From Methanospirillum stamsii (GTDB lineage Archaea > Halobacteriota > Methanomicrobia > Methanomicrobiales > Methanospirillaceae), in assembly GCF_003173335.1 (NCBI RefSeq), contig NZ_QGMZ01000039.1:1-64000 (forward strand): a stretch of DNA of 64,000 bases, in the 5' to 3' direction. The stretch's first letter is position 1; each line of letters starts with the position of its first letter. Of this stretch, positions 9,907 through 35,474 are shown one piece after another. The notes beneath the pieces are model-generated. The model searched no databases, was not told where the DNA came from, and worked only from the letters and a program-made list of their open reading frames with translations. The translations under genes were made by a program, and so were the position numbers.

Positions 9907-10066
9907 TGGGGTCGGTGAGATTTGAACTCACGATCGACGGGTCTCTCCGATATGCATCAGTGCTCCAACGGGTCATCACCAAATCAGCAGACCCATTTGT
10001 CATCATCTACACCGGAATGCAAAGACCGCTGGAGCCCGTCGCCATGCCGGACTAGGCCACGACCCC
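9907..10066 (-). tRNA. tRNA-Trp (CCA) with an 86-base intron at 37/38
   Basis: The acceptor strands GGGGTCG (10066-10060) and CGACCCC (9914-9908) pair fully, with A73 at 9907 and no encoded CCA tail. The T arm is GTGAG-TTCAAAT-CTCAC. The anticodon stem is ACGGG/CCCGT and the spliced loop reads CTCCAGA, giving anticodon CCA. The intron is 9943-10028. The splice sites form a standard bulge-helix-bulge: helix CTCC/GGAG flanked by the 3-base bulges AGC and AGA, cut after the second base of each. A TATA-like GTTTAAATC at 10094-10102 lies about 30 bases upstream. The intron contains a box C/D guide RNA. Confidence 0.95.
9957..10006 (-). ncRNA. Intronic box C/D guide RNA for tRNA-Trp positions 34 and 39
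   Basis: Inside the tRNA-Trp intron, in order on the minus strand: box C ATGATGA (10006-10000), box D' CTGA (9987-9984), box C' GTGATGA (9979-9973) and box D CTGA (9960-9957). By the D+5 rule, the guide before box D (TTGGAGC) pairs with GCTCCA plus intron bases of the precursor and selects C34. The guide before D' (GGGTCTG) pairs with CAGACCC, continuing to position 43, and selects C39. The same arrangement is established for the tRNA-Trp intron of Haloferax volcanii (2'-O-methyl C34 and U39); here position 39 is C and the guide matches it. Confidence 0.88.
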
Positions 10067-32003: not shown

Positions 32004-32453
32004 TTACTCGTAGAGATATTTTTCATCAATCCGGGAATAAGAAACAAGTTCTTCCGGCCTGAAGTGAATTGCAATCTCCCGGTCAGCAGTTTCAACACAG
32101 TCGGACCCATGGATAACATTCATCCCTATTTCAAGGGCGAAATCTCCCCGGATCGTTCCCGGAACTGCACCGGCAGGGTTTGTTGCTCCAATCATATCCC
32201 TGCTGATTTTCACGATGTCCTTTCCTTCCCAAACCATGAGGAAGCAGGGACCAGAAGTTATGTATGCTTTCAGACCAGGAAAGAATGGTTTCTGCACATG
32301 CTCTGCATAGTGCTCCATTACCCGTGATTCAGGAAGTTTTTCAAAACGTGAGGCGACCAACTTGAATCCTCTTCGTTCAAACCGGGTAACGATTTCCCCG
32401 ATAAGTCCGCGCTGGACACCATCTGGTTTTACCATCAAAAAGGTTCGTTCCAT
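32004..32453 (-). CDS. ndk: Nucleoside diphosphate kinase
   Basis: The 149-residue enzyme starts [20 protein letters not shown]. It has the phospho-histidine motif [16 protein letters not shown] and ends [19 protein letters not shown]. It equilibrates NTP pools by gamma-phosphate transfer through the active-site His. The start ATG 32453 lies 1 base after the L24e stop codon, and AGGTTT inside L24e serves as ribosome binding site. The L7Ae-S28e-L24e-ndk order is common in archaea. Confidence 0.96.
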
Positions 32454-32454
32454 C

Positions 32455-32646
32455 TTAAACCTTTCCAAGAGCTTTCCTGCCGGCAGTGGTCCACCTTACA
32501 CGACGTGGTATACGGCCAAGTTTATGGTTTTTCTGGCACTTGGTACTGCAGTAGAAGAATACCTGCCCATCCTTCTTAACATACATCTTCCCGGTCCCAG
32601 GTTCCATCTGCTCGCCACAGAATGAACAGACATGAGTATCAATCAT
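32455..32646 (-). CDS. rpl24e: Ribosomal protein eL24 (L24e)
   Basis: A 63-residue zinc-binding protein. [20 protein letters not shown] and [15 protein letters not shown] give the C-x2-C...C-x3-C zinc site of L24e, and the tail RIPRRVRWT is typical. It is part of the large ribosomal subunit, in the same operon as L7Ae and S28e. Confidence 0.95.
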
Positions 32647-32651
32647 TGATT

Positions 32652-32858
32652 TTACCTCCGGGAAAGTTTCTTTGCTTCGCGTTCTGTCTCAAGGAGCATG
32701 AGGACATCACCTTCACGGATAGGTCCTACCGTGTTGCGGGTGATAATCCGCCCCTTGTTCGGGCCATCAAGGATACGGGCCTTGACCTGCATGGCTTCTC
32801 CATGCATACCGGTTGACCCGATAACCTCAATTACTTCAGCGGGCGTTCCATCAGACAT
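32652..32858 (-). CDS. rps28e: Ribosomal protein eS28 (S28e)
   Basis: From ATG 32858 the product is 68 residues and matches S28e: [20 protein letters not shown], then [16 protein letters not shown] and the strongly conserved end [15 protein letters not shown] at 32867 overlaps the L7Ae stop and could add three residues. Confidence 0.95.
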
Positions 32859-32863
32859 GATAT

Positions 32864-33232
32864 TCACTCAGCTTTGAGGGCTGCAATCTGGGCAGCAATA
32901 TCGTCGATGATCTCTTTTGCTTTACCGGACTTTACGATAGCTGCAGCAGCTGAACCGACTTCAAGTCCACAGGCAGCGCCAATATCATTCTGCTTGTTAA
33001 TGAAGAGATAGGGTATCTTCTTTTCATCACAGAGCGGTCCGAGATGCATGACAATCTCGGCTGGTTCAACGTCTCCACCAATAAGAACAAGCTGCGCAAT
33101 ACCGCGCTCGATTGCCTTGGTTGCTTCGTTTGATCCTTTTTTAATTTTACCGCTTTCGCGTGCTGCTTCTACAGCTTCAAGAGCCTTGTTCTGGATATCT
33201 TCAGAAACTTCAAAGGTAACGTAGTTTGCCAT
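32864..33232 (-). CDS. rpl7ae: Ribosomal protein L7Ae (K-turn-binding protein)
   Basis: The 122-residue protein matches L7Ae. [16 protein letters not shown] is the RNA-binding helix, [19 protein letters not shown] and [11 protein letters not shown] form the core, and the remainder is typical. L7Ae is a ribosomal protein that also binds box C/D and H/ACA guide RNAs and RNase P by recognising kink-turns. It is therefore the expected partner of the tRNA-Trp intron guide. The leader has its own candidate K-turn next to the ribosome binding site (33246-33273). It is the first gene of the operon. Confidence 0.96.
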
Positions 33233-33236
33233 GAAT

Positions 33237-33273
33237 TCACCTCATTCAGGAGGGGCATGACCCTCCATCATCA
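33237..33273 (-). promoter_or_regulatory. Candidate K-turn-like element and Shine-Dalgarno in the L7Ae leader
   Basis: On the minus strand: TGATGA (33273-33268), T, arm GGAGGG, loop TCATGC, arm CCCTCC, then TGA (33248-33246). The arm can be extended by U-U and two tandem G-A pairs, the core of a box C/D-type K-turn (box C TGATGA, box D CTGA). The Shine-Dalgarno GAGGTGA (33243-33237) begins two bases later, five bases before the ATG. L7Ae bound here would be expected to cover the ribosome binding site. The outer helix is weak (a couple of pairs), so it may be a K-loop. Confidence 0.5.
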
Positions 33274-33380
33274 CTCATCAGCAGATGACGAATGTGCCAT
33301 ATATGTTACGATTGACATCAATTAAAGGTTCGCAAATCGGACCTTCTCAATCATCCTAACTATGGAGAAATTTACACCTA

Positions 33381-35474
33381 TTACAATGAATTGAGTTGAT
33401 AAATAGTAACATCATGATTTTTGTACAATACATGGAAATCATCAGGGCATATTGAAACCGTATATTTTTTATTTTCTTCAGGACCGACATAGAGGAGACT
33501 GGCATTATATGATCTCATGAGTAGCGTGGTTTGCTCCGGGTTTTCATACATAGTGCGCACATCAGAACCCCTTTGTGAATACCAACCGTCAGGAGTATTT
33601 CCACGCCACATATACTCATGGAATTGCCATCCGATGATGGTTGGAATCCCGGTAAAAGATGATATCCGGGAGGTATATTGATAATCATCTCCTGCTGCTT
33701 CAACAATAATATGATTGCCCGGTAGAGAACGTAAAAAATTCACCGCTTCAGCATCACCCTGATTTGAACTGGAAAGCCAGGCAAGACCATCCAGAGTCGG
33801 GGTATGAGCCCCAGGAATAGTAGACACTACCATAGGGGGAACAACCAGACATAGACACAATAAAAGAACAATTCCATATTGAACCGCCCCCGCCCTCCAT
33901 CGGTTACTATTCTCAATCATTTGATCCAGTTCTTTTCCAATCATGAGACCCGCTGATGTCCCACATAGAATCCAGGCGCCGATATAGAGTTTGAATACCG
34001 TATTCATCCGATAATAGGTTTCACCCATGTTATCAGCCAGATAAAAAATTTCACAGAAAAGGAGGATTACAAGGCCACCTGTTGCAAGAAAATCAGCAGC
34101 ACCATTTCTCCGAAGGAATAACAGGATGAGAAATAATACTGCAAATCCCGCAGATAAATAACCAACCACAAAAAAAGGGATCAGGACTAAAATAACCCAA
34201 GGGACAGTTTTGATTAATGAACGGAATGAAAATAAAAATGCTAATAGGAACCAACTATGCACCATCAAAAATTCCATGATATGGGAGGGATTATGGACAA
34301 AACCTATCCCTTCAATTCCCTGGGTACACATACTAAAAAGAAGGGGAGAGATTAATAGCAGACTTACAACCGGAACCAACAAAAGATAGATTATTGCTGA
34401 TGCTTCGGAAGACATCCATCCGCCTTTTTTACGGAACAACTCTTCCCTCACCTGGTTTATAATAAGCAGGGGCCTATACCTTATAGAATCCCAAGCATTT
34501 TCTCCAATAATCATGCAGAATCCAACAGCAAGGATCATGGGGGCCCAGATCAAAATATCCCAACTATTTACAGCAGGGATTATTGAGAGCCCAAGAGAGG
34601 TAAGGAGAATAATTACACCACGACCAGTCCTGGTAACCGACTTCCAGCAGGTTAAAGCAATCGTGACCATAAGAACCAGAAATGTCTGGGGAAGAATTCC
34701 TAAAACATGGGCGTGGACATCACCGAATAAAAAAGAAAAAAGAGGATATTCGTTGATAGTATTCAGAATAACCCTGCTACTGTCCCAAAGAAGAGTGAAT
34801 GAAGCGGTTCCGGTCAACGCAAGGAATATGAAATATGGATTAACAATAAAAAATGCCAGTACCGGTAAGATCCGGACATGCTTTAAGACAACATTACCAG
34901 CACCGTATAGATTGAGTGCAGAAAGCGCAGCAATAGTTGGTAGGACCAGATTAAAAAGGAGATTGGAGGGTATTCCTGCAATAAAAGCAGGCATGGCTAC
35001 CATCCAGTGCCCAAAATAATAGTACACATTGAGTTCTCCCCCGGCAAACCAGGGGTCCAGGGGAGGAACCATGGGATTTCTAAGAATCGAGGCGAGAAAT
35101 CCATGGTCCATGAATTTTTCTGCCCCATTAATATCAGGATTAAACATCCTTACAACAAGGAACGCCGCGAAAACCACTATGAAAAGCAGATAATACCGCC
35201 ATTCTTTTGGAATCTCAAGATAGAAATGTCCAAGTTTAAGAACCATCACTCCGATGTAAAGTAACATAACAGGGACTAATCCCATGAGTGGAGAAAAACC
35301 AAGATAAACAGAATACCACGAACCAAGAGAGAAAAGTATAAATCCCCCGGTCCCTGACACAGGAACAGCTACTTTAGGTAGAATCTTTTTTATCCAAGGA
35401 TACAGGGAGAGATGAATCGCAACAAGCACAACGAACCATGAAAGAACTGCAAAGACCTGATCCACTTCAATCAT
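33381..35474 (-). CDS. DUF2298 (YYY) polytopic membrane protein, probable glycan-related
   Basis: A 697-residue protein with about a dozen membrane helices from residue 5 onward and a soluble C-terminal part. The signature DPWFAGGELNVYYYFGHWMVA with its YYYF gives the family its YYY name. PLFSFLFGDVHAHVLGILPQ resembles GT-C glycosyltransferase loops with an Asp-His pair. The C-terminal segment includes EAVNFLRSLPGNHIIVEAAGD. DUF2298 proteins are known in archaea and bacteria and thought to be membrane glycosyltransferases. It is four bases from the flippase-like gene, in one leftward operon with the GT2 and FAD genes. Confidence 0.82.
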   Translation of the reverse strand: MIEVDQVFAVLSWFVVLVAIHLSLYPWIKKILPKVAVPVSGTGGFILFSLGSWYSVYLGFSPLMGLVPVMLLYIGVMVLKLGHFYLEIPKEWRYYLLFIVVFAAFLVVRMFNPDINGAEKFMDHGFLASILRNPMVPPLDPWFAGGELNVYYYFGHWMVAMPAFIAGIPSNLLFNLVLPTIAALSALNLYGAGNVVLKHVRILPVLAFFIVNPYFIFLALTGTASFTLLWDSSRVILNTINEYPLFSFLFGDVHAHVLGILPQTFLVLMVTIALTCWKSVTRTGRGVIILLTSLGLSIIPAVNSWDILIWAPMILAVGFCMIIGENAWDSIRYRPLLIINQVREELFRKKGGWMSSEASAIIYLLLVPVVSLLLISPLLFSMCTQGIEGIGFVHNPSHIMEFLMVHSWFLLAFLFSFRSLIKTVPWVILVLIPFFVVGYLSAGFAVLFLILLFLRRNGAADFLATGGLVILLFCEIFYLADNMGETYYRMNTVFKLYIGAWILCGTSAGLMIGKELDQMIENSNRWRAGAVQYGIVLLLCLCLVVPPMVVSTIPGAHTPTLDGLAWLSSSNQGDAEAVNFLRSLPGNHIIVEAAGDDYQYTSRISSFTGIPTIIGWQFHEYMWRGNTPDGWYSQRGSDVRTMYENPEQTTLLMRSYNASLLYVGPEENKKYTVSICPDDFHVLYKNHDVTIYQLNSL

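Follow-up and report, generated by a model that had tools for sequence, protein, structure and literature searches.

A conserved l7ae leader in Methanospirillum stamsii and its relatives: a K-turn adjoining the Shine-Dalgarno sequence and a probable second K-turn below it

Introduction

The closest described systems to the leader analyzed here are the autoregulatory leaders of archaeal L7Ae mRNAs. L7Ae of S. acidocaldarius binds the leader of its own mRNA and represses translation in vivo, as derived from RIP-seq, EMSA and reporters in a study that also aligned 121 archaeal l7ae leaders (Daume 2017, PMC5539422), and E. coli reporters carrying the leaders of several archaea, including M. acetivorans and A. 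fulgidus, are repressed as well (PMC5539422). For A. fulgidus a crystal structure of L7Ae with its leader is available, and in-line probing showed that the Shine-Dalgarno sequence (SD) is protected upon binding (Huang 2019, PMC6298567). By manual inspection, published work reported high leader conservation in Sulfolobales only.

Two further systems are of relevance. Yeast L30e, likewise an L7Ae-family ribosomal protein acting on its own message, recognizes a K-turn in its pre-mRNA and mRNA (PMC6298567), which is single and controls splicing as well as translation, unlike the leader described below. Euryarchaeal RNase P RNA is described as harboring a double K-turn module (Lai 2017, as cited in PMC6565675), and this is the nearest known double K-turn module.

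Here we characterize the leader of l7ae in a stretch of 64,000 nucleotides of Methanospirillum stamsii DNA (contig NZ_QGMZ01000039.1, positions 1 to 64,000), referred to as the window. Autoregulation as a mechanism is already known; what is new is the probable double-K-turn architecture.

Results

The l7ae operon and its leader

The first-pass annotation of the window had described a row of L7Ae, S28e, L24e and NDK genes, with which Pfam agrees, preceded by a K-turn-like element at 33237-33273. The features of the locus are collected in Table 1. The genes are separated by only 1-5 nt; L24e has its own SD, and S28e, L24e and NDK would be affected by a switch in the leader only on condition of coupled translation. 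PDB relatives of the L7Ae encoded in the window include the A. fulgidus L7Ae structures 4bw0 and 6hct. The gene upstream ends at 33381 and l7ae starts at 33232 (minus strand). Minus strand 33280-33230 reads TGATGAGTGATGATGGAGGGTCATGCCCCTCCTGAATGAGGTGAATTCATG, and the order of elements in 33283-33230 (minus strand) is UGCU-GAU-GA-GU-GAU-GA-U-GGAGGG-UCAUGC-CCCUCC-U-GA-AU-GA-GGUGAAUUC-AUG. In the relatives, the AAACCTTTAT-type box lies ca. 46-58 nt upstream of the distal GAUGA half; the spacing of this box places the transcription start site (TSS) near 33300, which would give a leader of ca. 68 nt.

Table 1. Features of the l7ae locus in the window (5' to 3' along the minus strand; KT1 and KT2, first and candidate second K-turn).
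Feature	Positions	Strand	Basis
BRE/TATA-like promoter element, AACCTTTAAT	33321..33330	-	AAACCTTTAT-type box aligned across nearly all relatives
Leader 5' arm, candidate strand of an anti-K-turn hairpin	33284..33300	-	MFE fold, shuffle and swap tests
Putative outer C-helix, 5' side UGCU, opposite SD GGUG (33241-33238): U.G, C-G, G.U, U.G	33280..33283	-	pairing counts
Candidate KT2 bulged strand: GAU bulge 33279-33277, GA 33276-33275, spacer GU 33274-33273	33273..33279	-	GA offset conserved
KT1 bulged strand: GAU bulge 33272-33270, GA 33269-33268, 3b U 33267	33267..33272	-	direct sequence
NC stem GGAGGG/CCCUCC with 6-nt loop UCAUGC	33249..33266	-	covariation across 36 leaders
KT1 non-bulged strand: 3n U 33248, GA 33247-33246; spacer AU 33245-33244	33244..33248	-	sequence, conservation
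Shine-Dalgarno GAGGUGA; first GA (33243-33242) also the candidate KT2 non-bulged strand	33237..33243	-	sequence, conserved columns
l7ae (eL8), 122 aa, presumed repressor	32864..33232	-	Pfam PF01248, E 9e-25
S28e (32858), L24e (32646) and NDK (32453), co-directional with l7ae	32004..32858	-	Pfam PF01200, PF01246, PF00334; ORF list

A nine-codon ORF, MAHSSSADE* (window 33300-33271, minus strand), begins with an ATG at the inferred TSS and ends inside the K-turn, and similar MATSLLTDE* peptides are found in many Methanoregulaceae and lost in other families. A leaderless upstream ORF with its stop inside the K-turn, giving translation-coupled control, would be one way to read this region. Of 117 leaders, 45 have an ATG whose frame is closed by a stop within the KT1 region, but 40 have no ATG at that place and the other 32 stop elsewhere, some reading through the element; not being conserved, this ORF was rejected, and control of this kind is very improbable.

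The K-turn before the Shine-Dalgarno sequence

The motifs from which the element had been proposed, TGATGA (33273-33268), GGAGGG (33266-33261), CCCTCC (33254-33249) and CTGA (33249-33246), are all in place, and the SD GAGGTGA (33243-33237) does start two bases after CTGA. Equally, the K-turn core of a U-U and tandem G-A pairs can be read off as G33269.A33246, A33268.G33247 and U33267.U33248, on a stem of 6 bp. Concerning folding, published rules state that metal ions alone fold K-turns with 3b=C, 3n=G or C:G at -1b:-1n. KT1 in the window has U.U at 3b.3n and U:A at -1b:-1n, and its folding is accordingly predicted to require L7Ae; some relatives carry C at 3b, hence this feature is not universal.

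To analyze conservation, leaders were extracted from ca. 150 distinct genomes of the phylum, and the element was located in 120 of them solely by the KT1 G.A pairs and a stem of 4 bp or more. The columns around KT1 are nearly invariant, the -AU of the bulge and the GA fully so, and the variable columns are those that K-turns leave free, namely 3b, nucleotide 1 of the bulge and, in the lower half, the matching 3n. The distance of 2 nt from KT1 to the SD is kept in 115-117 of the 120 leaders.

An alignment of this leader across Methanomicrobiales had been suggested as a check, and it shows conserved G.A pairs and compensatory changes in the stem. Among 36 diverse leaders, 95.5% of the cells are paired, compared with 84.8% in shuffles, and two-sided changes amount to 28 against 6.6 expected from shuffling. 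The covariation score reaches 0.399 against 0.212 in shuffled alignments, with none of 500 shuffles equaling it, and slid controls all score far below the native structure. The KT1 stem is the main source of the two-sided changes, with all four scored pairs varying on both sides.

The apical loop ranges from 2-3 to 92 nt among leaders, the stem being kept, and Methanoculleus-like and other Methanomicrobiaceae-type leaders carry an extra whole hairpin in it. In one set of Methanomicrobiales, mostly of family f2, insertions expand the loop to 43-92 nt and add a hairpin to it (L066, L068, L071, L072, L078, L137, L139, L141, L143, L144 and L147). A separate observation concerns one Methanomicrobiales leader (L044, CTGATGGGTGAGGTTAGTCCTGAATGAGG), where KT1 and KT2 appear eroded, through loss or an assembly error, and pairing of the 5' arm is still possible.

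A candidate second K-turn that includes the Shine-Dalgarno sequence

A second GA, with GAU before it, is found 7 nt upstream of that of KT1, and this offset is kept in 113 of the 120 leaders, which were located without it. Its bulged-strand columns are conserved as strongly as those of KT1. The resulting pattern, [GAU]GA-GU-[GAU]GA…GA-AU-GA, would allow a second K-turn, KT2, with candidate pairs G33276.A33242, A33275.G33243, G33274.U33244 (3b.3n) and U33273-A33245 (4b-4n), and a C-helix formed by U33280.G33241, C33281-G33240 and G33282.U33239. We thus take the outer part of the element as a probable second K-turn, placed 2 bp below KT1 in a stack, with the GA of the SD in its sheared pairs. 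The earlier annotation had located the element correctly and left out its conserved half at 33283-33274; its weak outer helix, read there as a possible K-loop, is most likely this second K-turn. A K-loop, in which a terminal loop takes the place of the C-helix, does not fit: here the terminal loop caps the NC stem, leaving the C side open for pairing with the SD strand.

KT2 takes its 3' strand from the SD (AAUGAGGUGA, to be compared with an ideal KT2 strand AAGGAGGUGA), and for this reason its conservation is uninformative; the case for KT2 rests on the 5' strand, on the boundary of conservation and on one compensatory event. As for the 5' strand, the K-turn rule score averages 5.7 of 6 for the native sequence and 2.2 for other upstream windows, and a perfect score is reached by 77% of the former and 0% of the latter. 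The C-helix pairs -1, -2 and -3 are formed in 71/71, 62/71 and 58/71 distinct elements, respectively, and conservation of the 5' strand ends at -4, together with the pairing. The outer helix has 1-3 bp with wobbles, and 1 bp in Methanosarcinales. The compensatory event is seen in Methanocorpusculum, where the spacer pair equivalent to U33273-A33245 has become C-G with pairing kept (14 of 14 genomes read), probably as one evolutionary event, and where position -1 of the C-helix has changed from U.G to U-A.

The same observations bear on a simpler reading, in which KT1 with a short C-helix is the L7Ae site and the upstream CUGAUGA is conserved for the 5' structure of the transcript or for another factor. 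In the literature l7ae leaders are depicted with one K-turn and weak C-helices (PMC6298567), the 3' GA of KT2 belongs to the SD anyway, and KT1 is retained without the upstream half in two leaders, L205 and L207. In L207 KT1 is kept together with the SD, so the upstream half is not indispensable; in L205 both halves of KT2 are absent and the SD is displaced, a joint loss that fits KT2. Against this reading, the upstream half matches the K-turn consensus column by column, varying only at 3b and L1, it persists in Methanosarcinales and Archaeoglobi despite unrelated 5' arms, and the base in its spacer changes in step with that on the SD side. We regard a single K-turn as conceivable but rather doubtful, and the formation of KT2 as somewhat favored by these column and pairing data.

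The leader 5' arm

The first ca. 17 nt of the leader are complementary to the bulged strands of both K-turns. In the MFE structure of the window leader a 5' hairpin forms together with the apical stem, with the SD unpaired or weakly paired, and in the centroid structure the SD is single-stranded. The 5' arm might then act against the K-turns, holding their bulged strands so that the SD stays accessible as long as L7Ae has not captured the K-turn. Pairing of the native arms is stronger than that of dinucleotide-shuffled arms (mean z -1.05) and of arms permuted among 30 representatives (p=0.0125), and the pairing is rewritten by family, with AUUC/GAAU, ACUC/GAGU or CAAUC/GAUUG. However, a coarser class-level arm swap, run first, was not significant (p=0.12), the whole-leader fold gives z = -0.93, the register shifts between clades, and the hairpin is absent from several lineages (Methanosarcinales, L194 and L195). 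The formation of a competing hairpin thus has moderate support; that it serves as the control just outlined is on the unlikely side. Such a hairpin is compatible with KT2 and does not exclude it.

Distribution and restriction to l7ae

A covariance model, R1, was built from the 36 leaders, the window leader being among the seeds. The window site scores 56.6 bits, well beyond chance, with the runner-up in the 3.7-Mb genome reaching 22.6 bits, and genomes outside the seed score as high as the window. Matches at E <= 0.01 are present in 146 of 149 genomes of the class, nearly always as a single strong one which, by coordinate comparison, lies directly 5' of l7ae. In the phylum as a whole, a match is present in 87 of 147 genomes, and all but about one of these matches are at l7ae according to the same comparison. 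They include the Archaeoglobi-like family f9, unrepresented in the seed, in which no more than one or two pairs of the stem remain, closed by a GNRA-like loop. One leader architecture is hence common to nearly all sampled Methanomicrobia and to most non-halophilic Halobacteriota.

It should be noted that the Archaeoglobi-like leaders L223-L226 read GCC-GAU-GA-NN-GAU-GA, although only one K-turn was described in the published A. fulgidus leader. R1 gives no match in the haloarchaea-like families f13, f17, f20 and f22, whose conserved leader is of another kind. This l7ae leader, seen in L227-L234 (GTTGATGATGCTCC ... GGAGCGnGAGCC), is unrelated, and may be their own version of a K-turn switch.

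In the search of the M. stamsii genome for other genes with the element, l7ae alone passes: pattern matches elsewhere lack the stem, the next covariance-model matches have E values of 0.06 or worse, and the nop5 leader is devoid of the element. This restriction to l7ae marks it as a presumed autoregulatory element and not a regulon motif.

It also bears on whether a stand-alone box C/D guide RNA overlaps the leader. KT1 has the box C-like UGAUGA, the box D-like CUGA and the U.U at 3b-3n of box C/D K-turns; the leader differs from them in lacking a guide segment and a C'/D' pair and in its location in an mRNA. The stem follows box C directly, leaving no room for a guide, and the tuned model matches at l7ae only. 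Rfam gives no match at the site and the candidate was rejected, a guide RNA here being hardly credible. Elsewhere in the window, at 9907-10066 (minus strand), Rfam places an sR3 C/D box RNA (9955-10010) inside a 160-nt tRNA match, which ARAGORN does not report as a tRNA; this sR3 would be a guide RNA located within the intron of a tRNA.

Discussion

Comparison with known K-turn systems

The window leader belongs, by every testable feature, to the L7Ae autoregulatory leaders, and L7Ae binding is predicted: the position adjoining the SD, the 3-nt bulge, the tandem G.A/A.G pairs and the compensatory NC stem were all found. It resembles the leaders of S. acidocaldarius, A. fulgidus and M. acetivorans (PMC5539422, PMC6298567) in the gene, the position over the SD, the GAU bulge, the tandem G.A/A.G, the weak C-helix and the unfavorable sequence for ion-induced folding, and it shares a terminal loop on the NC stem with half of the published leaders. 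These are described with one K-turn; the window leader and its relatives differ in a further GAUGA half, conserved to the same degree and placed 2 bp below the first, for which the SD provides the other strand, and in a possible competing hairpin at the 5' end.

With respect to RNase P RNA, inspection of that of the same genome (L209, G000:C3:151320-151621, minus strand) gives AUGUCC-G-GA-GU-AAU-GA...GA-AC-UAA-GA-U-GGACAU, in which two K-turn cores of opposite polarity surround a helix of 2 bp in the P12 region. Both this module and the leader have two cores flanking a 2-bp helix, but the bulges lie on opposite strands in RNase P RNA and both on the 5' strand in the l7ae leader; since the polarity differs, the leader is not a copy of the RNase P module. 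For the tandem K-turns of same polarity proposed here, the second half is conserved and covaries with the SD strand, with few independent changes. A search of article texts, of partial journal coverage, found no description of two K-turns in l7ae leaders and no solved example of two same-polarity K-turns 2 bp apart.

A proposed translational switch

The leader is very probably an L7Ae-responsive translational OFF switch. This is the best explanation because the anatomy matches that of the published leaders and because the U.U and U:A of KT1 fall outside the sequences that fold without protein. In all likelihood, by analogy with those systems, L7Ae represses its own translation via this element. 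The first-pass annotation had proposed this mechanism, rightly in view of the precedents (PMC5539422, PMC6298567), and had cited L7Ae feedback from Sulfolobus, where it is indeed known, as it is from a wide range of archaea.

The proposed course of events would be as follows. While free L7Ae is scarce, the SD strand would be open and ribosomes would start on l7ae, and the apical and 5' hairpins may form. As free L7Ae builds up it would bind KT1 and draw together the strands flanking the stem; KT1 closure would set the upstream CUGAUGA against the SD strand to give KT2, whose sheared pairs and short outer helix would consume the SD bases GAGGU. With the SD bases inside KT2, binding of the 30S subunit and of L7Ae would, in this proposal, be mutually exclusive, and a second L7Ae may occupy KT2. 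That two L7Ae bind, or that a full two-state switch operates, we consider quite unlikely. The most elaborate version, a cooperative two-step switch common to most non-halophilic Halobacteriota, with two L7Ae on stacked same-polarity K-turns 2 bp apart, the SD inside the second and the 5' hairpin keeping translation on at low L7Ae, is speculative and rather improbable as a whole.

Biological meaning

L7Ae is shared by the ribosome, by box C/D and H/ACA guide RNPs and by RNase P, and its level must therefore match its RNA targets. If KT2 does form, the SD would itself belong to an L7Ae site, and with two sites a sharper response would be possible. The leader is a natural test of whether two same-polarity K-turns can stack 2 bp apart, a question that is useful both to the structural study of K-turns and to the design of synthetic switches based on L7Ae.
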